In this document: positions 2,855-22,091 of the stretch, piece by piece | How the letters are laid out: every line of letters starts with the position of its first letter | How positions within the stretch are numbered: position 1 is the first letter of the stretch | From: a virus | Virus record (IMG/VR): IMGVR_UViG_3300029448_000361 | Span: 1-25,785 of that record | DNA: 25,785 nucleotides | Strand: one strand, 5' to 3' | Translations under genes and position numbers: made by a program | Notes under the pieces: generated by a model | What the model saw: only the letters and a program-made list of their open reading frames with translations | The model's database searches: none | What the model was told of the DNA's origin: nothing

Positions 2855-3093
2855 TCTAATATACGAATAGCCCTGGGTCTACCAGGCTGTCTTTCTATTG
2901 CTTGTCTATTTACTAAGCCATTCATAATACCCTGGACCGTGCCTTGTGATTTTCTTTCAGCAATAACTTGTTGTCCTTCTATTTGACCTTTAGCTATTTC
3001 ACGGACCGTAGGGTAAACACCGTTAACATTGTGGTATCTTTTTAAGAAAGCCAGTATGTCTGCCTGGTCTGCTGTCAATCCAAAATTATTCAT
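2851..3093 (-). CDS. Small LexA-like winged-helix DNA-binding protein
   Basis: An 80-residue protein. Residues 6-37, including LTADQADILAFLKRYHN and YPTVREIAKG, follow the LexA N-terminal DNA-binding layout: first helix, then a recognition helix region (TVREIAKG), then a helix and wing (SQGTVQGIMNGLVNRQAIER followed by QPGRPRAIRIL). There is no peptidase domain, so it cannot self-cleave like LexA. It probably binds operators as a small regulator. It is the last gene of the leftward unit, overlapping the preceding gene by four bases (3090-3093), and may act on the divergent region at 9127-9250; that target is a guess. Confidence 0.72.
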   Translation of the reverse strand: MNNFGLTADQADILAFLKRYHNVNGVYPTVREIAKGQIEGQQVIAERKSQGTVQGIMNGLVNRQAIERQPGRPRAIRILD

Positions 3094-3644
3094 TGTATTG
3101 CTCCTGTTTTTCTATTTGAATGACCTTGAACCATTTTATTAAATTTATTTAAATTAGTTTTAGTAAATTCAAAATCTGGATTTTTTTGATAATCTTCTGT
3201 TAAACACCATTGGACTAAACCTTCAAAAGTATCATCTTTATAAGTTCTAGCTTTAAACTTTTGTGCTTGGAAACCCAAAGCCATTAATGAAGAACCAGTT
3301 TCATTAGGTTGGGTATAAGTAATTATAGCTTTATAACCCATAGCAAAACACGCTGTAACAGCTTTGCTTAATAAAAAACTAGCCACATTTTTACAGCCAT
3401 CTTTTACAACAAGCCTACGAATTTCAATATGATCTCTTCTTTGTGACCAAGAGTGACTAGAACAAGTATCAACCGTTACTAACCCAAGCAAATCTTCTTC
3501 AATAACTATTGGAGATATATACTTAGATTTATCAAATGCACCGATTGTAAACTTATGTCTTTTTAATGGTTTACTGTGCCTATGGTATAGCTGTGTAAAT
3601 AATCGAGCTTCATTTAGTTTCAATCTAATTGTATTAAGTTTCAT
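3090..3644 (-). CDS. XF1762-type phage protein, GNAT acetyltransferase-like
   Basis: A 184-residue protein with the features of the XF1762 family of phage and prophage proteins. They are: an N-terminal YHRHSKPLKRHKFTIGAFD (about residues 20-38), a central IEIRRLVVKDGCKNVASFLL (about 73-92), and ITYTQPNETGSSLMALGF (about 108-125). The central part is the acetyl-CoA-binding region of a GNAT fold and the last is the usual β-strand and helix after it. The substrate is unknown. In other phages such proteins sit in early operons with recombination genes, as here. The start lies inside the end of the recT-like gene (11-base overlap). The last 50 residues are polar and less family-like. Confidence 0.8.
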   Translation of the reverse strand: MKLNTIRLKLNEARLFTQLYHRHSKPLKRHKFTIGAFDKSKYISPIVIEEDLLGLVTVDTCSSHSWSQRRDHIEIRRLVVKDGCKNVASFLLSKAVTACFAMGYKAIITYTQPNETGSSLMALGFQAQKFKARTYKDDTFEGLVQWCLTEDYQKNPDFEFTKTNLNKFNKMVQGHSNRKTGAIQ

Positions 3645-6238: not shown

Positions 6239-6871
6239 TTATGCATCTTTACGGTCATAAACCTTTAATTGCCTAGTGCAATAAAGATAAGTACGATAAC
6301 TATCTTGCCATTTTCCATAATCAGTATCTGATAATTGAATTTCAATATATGAAGCAAAATTGTCATAAACAAAGCTCGTGGTAACGTATCCTAATTTTCT
6401 TTTGTCTCTTGGGAATTCATAATTATTAGCCCAGCCATACGACAACCAATCAGCAATCAGTTTCCTTGCTGTGGTCCTGGTAATATGCATTTCATCGACA
6501 AGCTGGGTTATTGTAACTGGTTTATCTTGCAGATAAGAAACAACCATCCAGTTTGCAAAGAAGAAATTAACACGGCTGTGATTAACCCATCTTTGTATGG
6601 TTGTGTCTTTTCTGGTTTGTTGCATTGAGAATAGTTTTTGATTTCTAAGGGCGAAGTTTTGGCAAAGTTCTTTAAGGGCTACATTTTTAGTATATGTCAA
6701 ATGTACTGGTGGAGCATTAATAGGATTTCTAAATGTCGATGTCTGTATTCCCCTTGTTGAACCAGTTTCACATCTTGGGTTCATACCCTTACCATTACGG
6801 CTTGTCGTTTTCTTTTGCCCGTTCCAATAGTCTAGCTGACTATTTAGGGTTAAGTTTTTAGTATTGTTCAT
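6239..6871 (-). CDS. Winged-helix DNA-binding protein, MarR-like
   Basis: A 210-residue protein. The first 75 residues are basic and probably disordered (for example NGQKKTTSRNGKGMNPRCET). From about residue 95 a winged helix is visible: VNFFFANWMVVSYLQDKPVT, then ITQLVDEMHITRTTARKLIA (residues about 120-139, the helix-turn-helix), DWLSYGWANNYEFPRDKRKL (wing) and a C-terminal helix. This arrangement is close to MarR-type regulators that sense nothing obvious here. It lies immediately after the serine recombinase gene (stop TAA 6874-6872, start 6871), so it may regulate lysogeny or recombinase expression. The target is unknown. Confidence 0.7.
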   Translation of the reverse strand: MNNTKNLTLNSQLDYWNGQKKTTSRNGKGMNPRCETGSTRGIQTSTFRNPINAPPVHLTYTKNVALKELCQNFALRNQKLFSMQQTRKDTTIQRWVNHSRVNFFFANWMVVSYLQDKPVTITQLVDEMHITRTTARKLIADWLSYGWANNYEFPRDKRKLGYVTTSFVYDNFASYIEIQLSDTDYGKWQDSYRTYLYCTRQLKVYDRKDA

Positions 6872-7771
6872 TTATTTGTTCCCCTTTCTAGGTTTTCTAG
6901 GTGTTTTCCTTCTTTTAATAAATCCTTTATCCTTCTCTAAATATTTATTAAATGCTTCATTCATTACATTAATTTCTATATCTTTATGTTTCGCCCTTTT
7001 TACGATGTTAGATATAGTTGATGCATACCATTTGTAACCATTAACACTATCGTCTTTGGTTGCCCTGGTAGCACGGTTCGTTTTATTAAATAGTTGTGCT
7101 ATTCCACGGTACGAATAACCAGCATCAAGGAGAGCTTTAATCTCTGGGTACAATTCCATTGCAAATTGATTAGCATTAGCCTGTGTACTTTCTACAGCTT
7201 TCTTCCTTGCTTTTTTAAGGACCTCTTCAGACCTACCGAGCTTCTTTATAATATTCCCAGCTTTGGATTTATACAAACCCTTCTCTTTAATCTCAGCTTG
7301 AATACGGTCAAGAGATGCTTGGGTTCTTTCCTGGATCATGTGCCTTTCTAAATATGCCTGATTAGCAAACCAGCCCACAGTTTTATGATCCAGCATTGGA
7401 TTATCCAAAACAACCATTTTAAAGCCCTTCTTATGGACCTCATCAGAAAAAAATTTATTGGCTTCCCAATTTGTTCTGGATAATCTTGATAAACTAGTAA
7501 TGATTAAAGTTGCATCTTCTTTACGGCAATATTCCATCGCTTCTTGCAATACGGGTCTGCGAATGAAGGGAGTACTACCCGTAATCCCCTCTTCCTTAAA
7601 CCATTTAACCTGGTGATCTCCACCGTTTAAATATTCCTTAATCAAATGCATCTGGTTCTCAACCTCCTGTTTATCAGTCGATACTCTCACCAGACCAGCA
7701 AACTTGCCAGAATGTGGAACCCCGTGGTCTTGCCTATAGATTGGCATACGATCAATTCCGAAACTATGCAT
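6872..7771 (-). CDS. Serine site-specific recombinase
   Basis: A 299-residue serine recombinase (resolvase/invertase superfamily). The catalytic motif GLVRVSTDKQ places the nucleophile at Ser31. EEGITGSTPFIRRPVLQEAM and LIITSLSRLSRTNWEA (about residues 90-105) carry the conserved arginines. The long E-helix region is MIQERTQASLDRIQAEIKEK. A helix-turn-helix follows near residues 218-265 (DAGYSYRGIAQLFNKTN, then ASTISNIVKRAK), and the C-terminus is very basic. It should join or invert DNA at specific sites, for instance integration or a genetic switch. It is much shorter than large serine integrases. The start has AGGGAG eight bases upstream and overlaps the gene before it by eight bases. Confidence 0.92.
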   Translation of the reverse strand: MHSFGIDRMPIYRQDHGVPHSGKFAGLVRVSTDKQEVENQMHLIKEYLNGGDHQVKWFKEEGITGSTPFIRRPVLQEAMEYCRKEDATLIITSLSRLSRTNWEANKFFSDEVHKKGFKMVVLDNPMLDHKTVGWFANQAYLERHMIQERTQASLDRIQAEIKEKGLYKSKAGNIIKKLGRSEEVLKKARKKAVESTQANANQFAMELYPEIKALLDAGYSYRGIAQLFNKTNRATRATKDDSVNGYKWYASTISNIVKRAKHKDIEINVMNEAFNKYLEKDKGFIKRRKTPRKPRKGNK

Positions 7772-9234: not shown

Positions 9235-9250
9235 CTTTTAGTAATTGTAC

Positions 9251-9607
9251 ATGAAATATAGAGCAAAAAGAGTAGAATTAGATGGACATAAGTTCGACAG
9301 CCAGGCTGAAGCCAAGCACTATTGGTTTACGTTAAAGCCGTTGTTGGATAAGGGTGAGATAAGTCATTTACAGGTCCATCCTAAGTTTGAAATTAGAATA
9401 GATGGAGAAAAGATATGCAGTTATATAGCCGACTTCAGTTATTTCAACCAGAGGGAACGGGTCGTGGAGGATGTAAAGGGGTTCAAGACACCAGTATATC
9501 GCTTGAAGAAGAAGCTGGTAGAAGCCACACATCGGGGGGTGAAAATCTTGGAGATATTGCCGAAACAGTATCAGTCAAAAAAATACTCCTTGCCCTCTCA
9601 GACGTAA
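9251..9607 (+). CDS. DUF1064 family, nuclease-like phage protein
   Basis: A 118-residue protein of the DUF1064 family. Signatures: KYRAKRVELDGHKFDSQAEA at the N-terminus (with FDSQAEA), GEISHLQVHPKF, then CSYIADFSYFN and VVEDVKGFKTPVYRLKKKL. The residues E in the first block, D in IADF and E-D-VKG resemble a compact PD-(D/E)XK nuclease core; such proteins sit in phage replication regions. A TTG at 9245 gives two more residues, but ATG 9251 fits the family start. No clear ribosome-binding site precedes it. Seven codons before the domain-free C-terminal end lies an A-AAA-AAA heptamer, so part of the product may be extended into the DnaA-like frame. Confidence 0.85.
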   Translation: MKYRAKRVELDGHKFDSQAEAKHYWFTLKPLLDKGEISHLQVHPKFEIRIDGEKICSYIADFSYFNQRERVVEDVKGFKTPVYRLKKKLVEATHRGVKILEILPKQYQSKKYSLPSQT

Positions 9608-9849
9608 CGGGCTGTCCACCATTGGAATTGATTAATCATAGAAGGTCCAGGGAAGTTATGCCCTATCGTCACCTACTGTATGCATTAGCCAAAGAATTAA
9701 CCTGGCAGTCATTTCCACAGTTAGGAAAGACATTAAACCGTGACCACAGCACGGTCTTACACGGAGCCAAAAGAGGTCAGAAACTTATTGAAACGGACCC
9801 AAAGATAACCAAGGTTTATAAGCAAGTAAAAAGAAAGCTGGTAGCGTGA
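9415..9849 (+). CDS. DnaA domain IV-like DNA-binding protein, probably made by frameshift
   Basis: The recognisable part is the DnaA C-terminal DNA-binding domain: KKILLALSDVTGCPPLELIN, RRSREVMPYRHLLYALAKEL, then FPQLGKTLNRDHSTVLHGAK, containing the DnaA signature DHSTVLHG. The AAA+ ATPase part is absent. This domain begins at about 9577; everything before it in this frame is an out-of-frame reading of the conserved DUF1064 gene. ATG 9415 does have GGAG seven bases upstream, but there is no usual start near the domain. Frame -1 relative to DUF1064, with the slippery site at 9577-9583, would give a fusion of about 199 residues. Start therefore uncertain; end is TGA 9847-9849. Confidence 0.75.
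   Translation: MQLYSRLQLFQPEGTGRGGCKGVQDTSISLEEEAGRSHTSGGENLGDIAETVSVKKILLALSDVTGCPPLELINHRRSREVMPYRHLLYALAKELTWQSFPQLGKTLNRDHSTVLHGAKRGQKLIETDPKITKVYKQVKRKLVA
9577..9583 (+). other. Candidate -1 frameshift site, A-AAA-AAA
   Basis: Seven A residues lie in the exact X-XXY-YYZ phase of the DUF1064 frame: TCA-AAA-AAA-TAC at 9575-9586. Slipping back one base leads straight into the DnaA domain IV frame (next codon ATA 9583-9585). GGAG at 9550-9553 lies upstream, farther than in dnaX. Eight bases downstream GCCC (9592-9595) can pair with GGGC (9609-9612), a weak stem. The zero-frame stop TAA is at 9605-9607. A homopolymer sequencing error would look the same. Confidence 0.55.
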
Positions 9850-10064: not shown

Positions 10065-10209
10065 TAAAGAAACACAAAAGAAGCTGGATATATGTCCTAG
10101 CTGTAAGTCTCAACTTAGTATAATGCGAACCGATAAGGACCGTGTAGAACGTCAATGCCCGACTTGTAGGCTAATAATAGTGGATACCATTAAGAATGAA
10201 GATAAGTAA
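10054..10209 (+). CDS. Small zinc-ribbon protein
   Basis: A 51-residue protein from ATG 10054 to TAA 10207-10209. It contains two CxxC knuckles, DICPSCKSQL and RQCPTCRLII, 22 residues apart, the plan of a single zinc ribbon. The first overlap (11 bases) is with the gene before it and the second (14 bases) with the replication initiator. Zinc ribbons of this size often bind nucleic acid or a polymerase. Its place directly before the initiator suggests a helper in replication or transcription, by position only. Confidence 0.62.
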   Translation: MVTDKETQKKLDICPSCKSQLSIMRTDKDRVERQCPTCRLIIVDTIKNEDK

Positions 10210-11296
10210 GTTAACACCAGACCCATTGCGTGATCCCCCAAAAGGACAAGGTGAGCATCAATGTCCAGGTCCATTTATTATGCTACCACCCAGGGCTTAC
10301 GGAGATGTACGTTTTAATAAATATCCTACGACCTTCAGATGCCTGGCAATATGTTCAGCACACGCTAAACAGAATACATCTATCTTTTTCGTTAATCACA
10401 TAACGATATCTAAGATTATGGGTAATACCAAGTCAGCTATCTCACAGCACTTTAAACGCCTGTTAGAATGGGGTTACATACAGAAGCTAAAGAGTAGCAA
10501 CCCTAAACTGCCTTACGGTCAGAGAGGAGCCAAGTGGCGTGTTATATTCGATGAAAGAGTGAGCATAGAAGATCAGTTAGCTGGAGCTACAGATATAGAC
10601 GATAACCAGGTAGTCGAGACACTTAATAAAATAACACCTATGCATAAACCATTGTCAGAGAAACAGATCGCTATGGCCAATGATATAGCCCAGAAGTATA
10701 TGAAGAACTCCAATGAGTATTATCAGCCAGGTAAGATCGCTAAAGATATACAGATATGGTTACAAGGTGAACAGACAGAAGCTACCTGGAAAGCTATCGG
10801 AAATGGTCTACGTTCACCCTTTGAAGCTGGTTATTTAAAGGATAAGAAAGTTAAGCCACAGCTAAACTCTTCACATAATAAAGTTAAGGTGGGGCTAAAC
10901 TCTTACAATGATAAAGTTAAGCTGGAGCTAAACTCGACCCCTAAAAAAGTTAAGATGGAGCTAAACCATAACTATAAAGTACTAACTAATAGTACTAGTA
11001 GTAGAATTTTAAATAAGAATTTATGTGATATTTATATGAATGTAGTTAGAAGCATATACAATTCTGAATGGAGATATGATGATAGACAGATGATGATTGC
11101 TGGTCAGTTGATAGAAGCTGGATACACCTCAGATAAGTTTAAGTCAGAAGCAATGTCAGTATTGCAATGGACCAGGTCCAATAACAAACAACCACCACAA
11201 TCATTACAATACTTCCTTACTAAGCATATAAACAAAGACAAGCCAATAACAGTAGATGGTATAGTCAAAAGACTAGGAGCAAAGATGAAGCTATGA
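10196..11296 (+). CDS. Replication initiator-like winged-helix protein
   Basis: A 366-residue protein. The N-terminal third has a winged helix like phage and plasmid initiators: FNKYPTTFRCLAICSAHAKQ, FFVNHITISKIMGNTKSAIS, QHFKRLLEWGYIQKLKSS (residues about 40-100). A helical middle (PLSEKQIAMANDIAQKYMKN) precedes a linker at about residues 218-258 in which K-V-K-x-x-L-N-S repeats every 11 residues. The linker DNA forms four iterons. The C-terminal domain (QMMIAGQLIEAGYTSDKFKS) may contact a helicase or loader. The layout equals lambda O: N-terminal DNA binding, iterons in the middle of the gene, C-terminal partner contact. That function is inferred from layout. Overlaps the zinc-ribbon gene by 14 bases. 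Confidence 0.75.
   Translation: MKISKLTPDPLRDPPKGQGEHQCPGPFIMLPPRAYGDVRFNKYPTTFRCLAICSAHAKQNTSIFFVNHITISKIMGNTKSAISQHFKRLLEWGYIQKLKSSNPKLPYGQRGAKWRVIFDERVSIEDQLAGATDIDDNQVVETLNKITPMHKPLSEKQIAMANDIAQKYMKNSNEYYQPGKIAKDIQIWLQGEQTEATWKAIGNGLRSPFEAGYLKDKKVKPQLNSSHNKVKVGLNSYNDKVKLELNSTPKKVKMELNHNYKVLTNSTSSRILNKNLCDIYMNVVRSIYNSEWRYDDRQMMIAGQLIEAGYTSDKFKSEAMSVLQWTRSNNKQPPQSLQYFLTKHINKDKPITVDGIVKRLGAKMKL
10847..10968 (+). repeat. Four iterons inside the initiator gene
   Basis: Four 23-base copies of AAAGTTAAG-N6-CTAAACTC start at 10847, 10880, 10913 and 10946, exactly 33 bases apart. The six variable bases are CCACAG, GTGGGG, CTGGAG and ATGGAG; the fourth copy ends in CTAAACCA. Each copy is a partial inverted repeat (GTTAAG against CTAAAC). 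The 33-base spacing is three helical turns, so all sites face the same side of the DNA. They are in frame (11 codons) inside the initiator gene. Confidence 0.85.
10847..11040. other. Probable phage replication origin
   Basis: The four iterons (10847-10968) are followed at once by an AT-rich stretch: 10981-11040 has only 11 G or C in 60 bases, with the repeated AGTACTA at 10978-10984 and 10991-10997. Iterons plus an AT-rich unwinding element in the initiator gene is the design of the lambda origin. No polymerase gene is in the window, so host replication proteins would be recruited here. The DnaA-like domain encoded at 9583-9849 might take part. Confidence 0.65.
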
Positions 11297-11633: not shown

Positions 11634-11847
11634 AAAATATGACGTAGTACAATCACAAGGTACTTATCAAAAAGACGGTCAAGAAAAGACCAGGTGGATG
11701 ACCATAGGTGTTTTGTTAGAAAAGCCAGATGGTAAACGCTCTATCAAGCTCAATGCCCTTCCCTTGCCGAATAAAGATGGTGATATCTGGCTCCAGGTCT
11801 TTGAAAGCAAACCGATGGATAAGCCGAAGGTGGAAGGCTGGAATTAA
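11626..11847 (+). CDS. Small conserved β-rich phage protein
   Basis: A 73-residue protein starting at ATG 11626, six bases after AGGAGA; a longer reading from 11590 overlaps the zinc-finger gene and is unlikely. It is β-rich: KKYDVVQSQGTYQKDGQEKT, WMTIGVLLEKPDGKRSIKLN, LPLPNKDGDIWLQVFES. Small proteins of the form KYDVV-TGxY…K-R are common in phages and plasmids, and are possibly OB-fold-like nucleic-acid binders; this is from memory. It ends one base into the terminase small subunit. Confidence 0.62.
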   Translation: MDKKYDVVQSQGTYQKDGQEKTRWMTIGVLLEKPDGKRSIKLNALPLPNKDGDIWLQVFESKPMDKPKVEGWN

Positions 11848-12242
11848 TGCCGAGAGTTAACAAACGCTTTCCAGCAGTTGGTGAAGTAACCAAACGGCTA
11901 AAAGGTTCGAGTATTATTTATGATAATCGGGATCAGTTAGCCGAACAGTTATTGATGTTAGCTGGAGCCAATATAACCGATGTACTGCAATGGGAGGATA
12001 ACAATGTCAGTATTAAAGAGATCAAGGACATCCCACCGTCAGCGTTACAGGCAATTAAAAAGATCAAGGTTACGCCTACCAGGTCGGGTGATCAAATCGA
12101 AGTCGAGATGATAGATAAGGTCCGTGTGTTACAGATTTTATCGAAGTCTGCTGGATTACTGGACCAGGAAAAAGATAGTGAGAAACCAGCCGTGGTGGAT
12201 ATCACGATGATTATGCCTGGCGAATTGGAGAAGAAGAAATGA
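11847..12242 (+). CDS. terS: Terminase small subunit
   Basis: A 131-residue protein. An N-terminal helical region (QLAEQLLMLAGANITDVLQW) is followed by PPSALQAIKKIKVTPTRSGD, then IEVEMIDKVRVLQILSKSAG, the pattern of the Terminase_2-like C-terminal part. Small terminase subunits bind the packaging site and regulate the large subunit. It overlaps the large terminase gene by four bases (ATGA, 12239-12242), the usual pair arrangement. There is no clear helix-turn-helix at the start, so a shortened DNA-binding part is possible. Confidence 0.82.
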   Translation: MPRVNKRFPAVGEVTKRLKGSSIIYDNRDQLAEQLLMLAGANITDVLQWEDNNVSIKEIKDIPPSALQAIKKIKVTPTRSGDQIEVEMIDKVRVLQILSKSAGLLDQEKDSEKPAVVDITMIMPGELEKKK

Positions 12243-21557: not shown

Positions 21558-22091
21558 ATGGCACAATACTTAGCAGTAGCATCAGCAGTAGTTAGTGGAA
21601 TAGCTGGATACAGAGCTAACCAGGCAAAAGCAGATCAACTTAAAGCTGAAGCTAAACAAACCGAGATACAAGGCAGAGCCGATGCTGTTGAATATAAAAG
21701 GCAAAGTGTAGAAGTAATGCGAAGAATGAACGCTGTTATATCTGCTAATATTGCCAGGGCTGGAGCCAGAGGTTTAAACCCTTATGCAAGTGGTGGCGTA
21801 ACAGAATTAATAAATAATTATAATCGAAGATACGCATTAAAAGATGTAATAACATTAAGACAAAATGCGAAGATGGCTAAAGGAATGGCACAATACCAGG
21901 CTGGTCAATATAGAACTTCAGCTAATACGGTAATGAAACTTGCACCACTACAAATGTTTTCGACTATCGGTATGGGCGTTTCTCAAGCAATGCAAATGGG
22001 TGGACCAGGTAGTGGTAATCCAATGACTAAAACAAGTACTCCTGGTGCTAATACTGGAATAAGCTATAGCAATTATGGACCTGGTTATTAA
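21558..22091 (+). CDS. Internal virion protein B-like (T7 gp14 position)
   Basis: A 177-residue protein: a hydrophobic start (YLAVASAVVSGIAGYRANQA), a long Ala/Gln/Lys-rich helix (KADQLKAEAKQTEIQGRADA), RRMNAVISANIARAGARGLN, and a Gly/Pro/Ser-rich tail (GGPGSGNPMTKTSTPGANTG). Size, gene order and helix layout are those of the T7 gp14 type, an ejection protein thought to form the outer-membrane pore. It is inferred from synteny plus composition. Confidence 0.8.
   Translation: MAQYLAVASAVVSGIAGYRANQAKADQLKAEAKQTEIQGRADAVEYKRQSVEVMRRMNAVISANIARAGARGLNPYASGGVTELINNYNRRYALKDVITLRQNAKMAKGMAQYQAGQYRTSANTVMKLAPLQMFSTIGMGVSQAMQMGGPGSGNPMTKTSTPGANTGISYSNYGPGY

Follow-up and report, generated by a model that had tools for sequence, protein, structure and literature searches.

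Introduction

Iteron plasmid origins of the RepE/RepA/TrfA type combine iterons, an A+T-rich element and DnaA boxes. Iteron origins that lie within a gene are already known from lambda, the Stx phages and SPP1. The lambda origin, oriL (ori-lambda), has four iterons in the middle of gene O, and the Stx phages P27 and 933W have six, followed by an A+T-rich tract (PMC7466680); in ori-lambda the iterons are 18 bp long and the A+T tract measures 38 bp (PMC3349717). SPP1 oriL, in gene 38, likewise has direct repeats inside the initiator gene plus an A+T-rich unwinding element (PMC6316719). Covariation of an initiator with its iterons, including repeated swaps, is also established: in RepA of the Vibrio cholerae PLE, changes in the DNA-binding domain go along with changes in the iterons, against a conserved C-terminal domain, and several specificity swaps have been ascribed to an origin-directed phage nuclease (PMC8263062). 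Plasmid copies of ori-lambda block lambda (PMC4488673, PMC3349717).

Here we describe a marine phage family with predicted origins of this general kind, in which the new elements are the family itself, intragenic DnaA boxes at a fixed distance, iterons that are independent of the reading frame, and a two-position recognition code. Our literature search, of partial coverage, found nothing relevant on such origins in pelagiphages.

Results

Phage record and gene neighbourhood

The window, that is, the whole stretch of 25,785 nucleotides that was analysed, makes up most of the 26.4-kb IMG/VR virus record IMGVR_UViG_3300029448_000361. Its podovirus portal protein shares 58% identity with that of Methylophilales phage MEP301; its relation to the portals of pelagiphages such as HTVC010P is more remote. 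A rightward block of genes encodes, in order, a DUF1064 nuclease, a DnaA domain IV protein, small products, the putative initiator, and the small and large terminase subunits. The GC skew minimum of the window, near 9.0-9.25 kb, coincides with the strand switch of the genes and is not discriminating. The features that matter for the argument are as follows.

9415-9849, + strand: DnaA domain IV gene (DnaA-box-binding HTH; PF08299, E 1.9e-13), in the same block as the initiator gene
10196-11296, + strand: putative initiator gene, 366 aa (ORF, AlphaFold2 model, profile matches)
Initiator residues about 30-120: winged helix (AlphaFold2 and profiles)
10427-10453, + strand: recognition helix T-K-S-A-I-S-Q-H-F, residues 78-86, in which S80 and Q84 occupy the two positions linked to the half-site by covariation in the family
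10658-10798, + strand: extra helical segment, residues 155-201 (AlphaFold2), within a long linker (>140 aa)
Initiator residues 217-265: disordered linker (AlphaFold2)
Initiator residues 266-364: helical C-terminal domain (AlphaFold2)
10847-10869, + strand: iteron 1, dyad at 10849-10868
10880-10902, + strand: iteron 2, dyad at 10882-10901
10913-10935, + strand: iteron 3, dyad at 10915-10934
10946-10968, + strand: iteron 4, dyad at 10948-10967
10981-11040, no strand: A+T-rich stretch (81.7% A+T, by base composition), presumed unwinding element
11847-12242, rightward block: small terminase subunit gene, just 3' of the initiator gene

The listed ORF of the DnaA domain IV gene (9415-9849, + strand) overlaps the DUF1064 gene at 9245-9607. 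Elsewhere in the window, a serine recombinase gene and then a MarR-like winged-helix gene lie at 6872-7771 and 6239-6871, both on the - strand, a pair that is possibly a module for a temperate lifestyle. The product of 3090-3644 (- strand) matches a Mom-like DNA modification family (phrog_1384, E 3.3e-19), and its gene adjoins recombination genes of the RecT and YqaJ types.

Iterons and A+T-rich stretch in the window

The iteron, AAAGTTAAGnnnnnGCTAAAC, occurs in four copies at codon offset 0 of ORF 10196-11296, starting at 10847, 10880, 10913 and 10946. This confirms the earlier description of four repeats at an exact 33-bp spacing, in frame in a winged-helix gene. Each copy is also a dyad, AGTTAAG-N6-CTAAACT (the fourth ends in CTAAACC), which the earlier note had overlooked. 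When three or fewer mismatches are allowed, the pattern has 6 matches in the window against 0.13 expected from shuffles, namely the four iterons, a dyad read on the reverse strand and a site at 21637 with 3 mismatches. The array outscores every one of 200 codon-shuffled and 200 synonymously shuffled sequences. Five residues (K, V, K, L and N) are invariant and use one codon each in all four iterons, a uniformity with a chance of about 3e-5 given the codon usage of the phage, and residues between and after the iteron cores vary at all codon positions. The segment falls within the linker of residues 217-265, which is modelled as disordered with pLDDT below 50.

The A+T-rich stretch lies directly 3' of the iterons, as in origins of the lambda O type. 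Its composition, previously given as 82% A+T, is 81.7% on measurement, which places it in the top 0.4% of the 60-base windows of this DNA; richer ones lie near 3134 and 22853. The same peak recurs at homologous loci, where the first and second 30-base bins past the last iteron have 76% and 73% A+T against a locus mean of 55%. Its median rank across these loci is the top 0.33%, and at 72% of them one of the top 1% of the A+T windows of the locus falls just past the last iteron.

Architecture of the putative initiator

The AlphaFold2 model of the protein (mean pLDDT 81) and profile matches agree on an N-terminal winged helix and a separate C-terminal domain, the arrangement of lambda O. Among 40 members, 33 match phrog_270 ("replication initiation protein") and 29 match phrog_391 ("O-like"), the latter owing at least partly to the shared winged helix. 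None of the 40 matches the Pfam O family (Phage_rep_O) at E 0.01, and their Pfam matches include no plasmid Rep family (Rep_3/RepA). The HTH profiles are MarR/ArsR-like, and a PDB fold search with the whole model returns winged helices of the MarR type with weak E-values. No solved structure in the PDB matched the C-terminal domain, whose sole matches are uncharacterised viral proteins.

A family that conserves the DNA sites

As a lone query, the window protein retrieved nothing related from viral contigs, host genomes or a set of 50,697 phage records. With the terminase as the way in, 54 of 80 loci proved to encode an initiator homologue in the corresponding position, and this route plus four further searches yielded a set of 93 non-redundant homologues. 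All their loci are viral contigs except L297, which comes from a metagenome bin labelled Flavobacteriaceae. In MEP301, which by its portal is the nearest cultivated relative, the only related protein is gp55, which has a winged helix but is shorter, and no iterons are evident around it, so that the family has no cultivated member; Rhodobacter phages match it in the HTH only.

Arrays were sought with two detectors, the first of which uses a fixed spacer, excludes two-letter half-sites and takes p <=0.01 against codon shuffles as significant, whereas the second leaves the spacer free and permits two-letter half-sites. Detector 1 finds significant dyad arrays in 67 of 93 linkers (66 of 93 against synonymous shuffles) and detector 2 in 78 of 93; the two combined place dyad arrays in the same linker in 90 of 93 homologues. 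About 20 genes appear array-less under detector 1 because the two-letter half-site ACAAC is excluded and the spacer is fixed. The sites are strongly concentrated in the gene: the dyad of the commonest class, ACAAG-N6-CTTGT (40 loci), has 97 copies within the initiator genes (38.8 kb) and 7 in the 310 kb that surround them.

What is conserved is the DNA and not the peptide, since 63 of the 78 arrays found with free spacers have sites in more than one reading frame. In L009, for example, one site is read as T-Q-A-P-A-C and the next as N-K-P-Q-L-V, and in L012 a site is read as T-S-P-T-L. The peptide K-V-K-x-x-L-N, which the earlier note had singled out, thus has no role of its own, as the DNA site turns up in two or three frames among the homologues. 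The spacing is equally free to vary. The last iteron spacing is 24 bp in 41 of the 67 significant arrays; values of 16, 23, 26, 32-35 and 41-46 bp are found as well, and spacings are clade-specific. The check suggested in the earlier note, whether repeats and phase persist among homologues, comes out positive for the repeats and negative for the 33-bp phase: 33 bp is no rule, and the argument that this spacing keeps all sites on one helical face does not transfer to the family. In four genes (L180, L187, L242 and L233) the dyad arms are constant while the gap between them is 5, 7 or 8 bases within one array, which is unusual for a symmetric dimer site.

DnaA boxes at a fixed distance

The exact DnaA box TTATCCACA is present in 60 copies in the initiator genes (94 kb) and in 4 copies in their flanks (696 kb), a density about 110 times higher inside the genes than outside. 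It mostly lies 19-22 bp before the first iteron, where it is encoded as P-V-D-K/N; the L009-type origin carries the box TGTGGATAA. A box stands beside the iterons in 49 of the 93 genes, which are 49 of the 74 with short linkers and none of the 19 with long linkers. The window belongs to the latter: it contains no exact box, and one-mismatch sites are at chance level. The window lineage has the extra helical segment of residues 155-201 instead. Among short-linker loci with enough upstream sequence, 24 have both the box and an upstream DnaA domain IV gene, 10 have neither, and 4 and 4 are mixed; the long-linker phages, including the window, retain the DnaA domain IV gene without a box. The associations of the box with linker length and with the DnaA domain IV gene both partly reflect clade.

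A two-position code links recognition helix and half-site

The half-site varies by clade and covaries with two positions of the recognition helix, numbered from 1 along T/S-Q-x-A-x-S-y-H/Q-F/M. Glutamine at position 3 is paired with C at base 2 of the half-site (ACAAx), and proline or serine with T (ATAAx and ATTAx; TTTAG/TTAAG in the window). Lysine or arginine at position 7 goes with C at base 5, and Q, E, L or H with G. The code fits all 71 non-redundant genes whose helix could be aligned and 126 of 127 distinct genes. It was derived from the classes that detector 1 had found, and the half-site that it predicts for the 12 genes without a convincing detector-1 array, ACAAC, is present in 3-4 exact copies in all of them. 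The sole exception, L297 (5881-7083), combines a QPA helix with ACAAC sites. In the linker and at the C-terminus L297 agrees with L180 at about 95%, but upstream of the linker its matches are to other relatives, and it is therefore read as a recombinant, natural or assembly-made.

On a tree built without the helix and the linker, residue 3 and base 2 each undergo 7 changes and the pair likewise 7, so that all changes are joint. Path-independent contrasts agree in 7 of 7 cases (two-sided sign test, 0.016); 4 of them lie on well-supported branches, too few to be significant alone. Residue 7 changes only 3 times on the tree. The switches can be seen at close range. The C-termini of L046, L056 and L126/L045 are 90-97% identical, yet their helices read QPAIAKH, QQAVHKH and QSAVSQH and their sites are ATAAC, ACAAC and ATTAG, respectively. 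Four genes with a QPA helix have ATAAC sites; close relatives with QQA have ACAAC. In the tightest pair, L066 and L187, one of nine recognition-helix residues differs (P/Q) and all four iterons are switched, together with other differences. Because site and reader belong to the same gene, a joint switch is possible.

The code does not cover helices of a different pattern, such as those of the L062/L215 and L004/L275 groups, which bear dyads of their own. L004, L275, L279, L281 and L283 form the sister group of the window; their helices (ARTHVTNYM, SEGKISGYI) look unrelated, and their dyads, of the GTAAC/TTACC type, represent further specificities beyond the two positions.

Discussion

Based on these comparisons, the product of the gene at 10196-11296 is very probably a replication initiator of the lambda O kind, with its origin inside the gene. 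The lambda-style intragenic reading of the earlier note is strongly supported at the level of comparison, by the 90 of 93 homologues that keep arrays, by the A+T peak and by the PHROG initiator matches. The confinement of the dyads to the gene, their spread over reading frames, the covariation of half-site and recognition helix, the successful prediction of ACAAC sites, the DnaA boxes beside the iterons in other members and the disorder of the iteron segment speak for it too; the exception L297, the missing DnaA box of the window, the lack of a cultivated member and of a recognised loader of the lambda P type nearby speak against it. We infer that iteron binding, A+T opening, helicase loading and the start of replication take place at the array. 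The winged-helix domain would bind each of the four dyad iterons, probably as a dimer, within the stretch that codes for the disordered linker. The resulting nucleoprotein complex would put strain on the A+T-rich stretch that adjoins the iterons on the downstream side and open it. Recruitment of the host helicase and replisome would fall to the helical C-terminal domain, perhaps aided by host factors.

In architecture the marine family would work like ori-lambda and SPP1 oriL, while by sequence it lies outside the Pfam O family. With lambda O it shares dyad-like sites, a domain of winged-helix type ahead of the iterons and a distinct domain at the C-terminus; unlike lambda, it has other half-sites, wider clade-specific spacings (16-46 bp) and, in about half of its members, a DnaA box at a fixed distance. 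The initiator gene of the window also stands directly upstream of the terminase genes, with no recognised lambda-P partner: no lambda-P-like helicase loader was recognised nearby, where the next genes are small ORFs (part of which were scanned) and the terminase. SPP1 differs in having its own helicase, its own loader and a second origin, whereas no helicase or loader genes were recognised in the window, and no sequence relation to SPP1 was found. Compared with iteron plasmids, the marine family keeps the whole origin inside the initiator coding sequence and yields no plasmid Rep family in the Pfam scan, and the window itself lacks a DnaA box beside its iterons. The PLE origin, in turn, is intergenic and its protein is of the RepA_N type, whereas the marine family has origin and reader within a single gene, and two helix residues suffice to describe the covariation.

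Other functions for the repeats have to be weighed. The dyads could be operators through which a MarR-type winged-helix regulator represses its own gene or its neighbours from inside the gene. The MarR-family fold neighbours in the PDB and the MarR/ArsR-like HTH profiles suit such a regulator, which would also predict the same covariation of helix and half-site. We nevertheless consider it improbable: the sites lie some 650 bases into the gene and are nearly restricted to it (main class: 97 sites within the gene and 7 beyond it), neither an adjoining A+T peak nor fixed-distance DnaA boxes are expected of operators, and the protein has both a conserved C-terminal domain apart from the winged helix and replication initiators among its PHROG matches.

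Repeated sites are also known from pac regions, which, with the nearness of the array to the terminase genes, could suggest a packaging site for the small terminase subunit encoded just downstream (11847-12242). The half-site type, however, tracks the recognition helix of the initiator, and three half-sites are swapped within a clade whose small terminase subunits are 90-95% identical and whose large subunits are 97-98% identical; as the A+T peak and the DnaA boxes are also left unexplained, a pac function is very improbable. The shared frame of the four window copies at 33 bp could finally point to a recent tandem duplication of an 11-residue linker unit, with the DNA similarity as a by-product. 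This is hardly credible, since the array is lost on synonymous shuffling (0 of 200), the unit cores are identical while the spacers vary at all codon positions, homologues encode the same site in several frames, and the segment is predicted to be disordered.

Within the reading as an intragenic origin, a more comprehensive proposal, possible rather than probable as a whole, is that these are marine podovirus origins read by a two-residue code; that origin and reader switch together, probably under pressure from decoys, satellites or co-infecting relatives; and that in lineages with a box it is the DnaA domain IV protein of the phage, and not host DnaA, that occupies it. Evasion is a plausible cause of the type switching because origin decoys inhibit lambda (PMC4488673, PMC3349717).

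Uncultivated marine phages of a widespread group thereby gain predicted origins and an initiator, of which we found none described before; they also offer a natural set of paired switches of protein and site. The two-position code yields sharp and cheap predictions, and its matching rule is directly testable. The switching of reader and site as a unit bears on how replicons escape from incompatibility, decoys and satellites.
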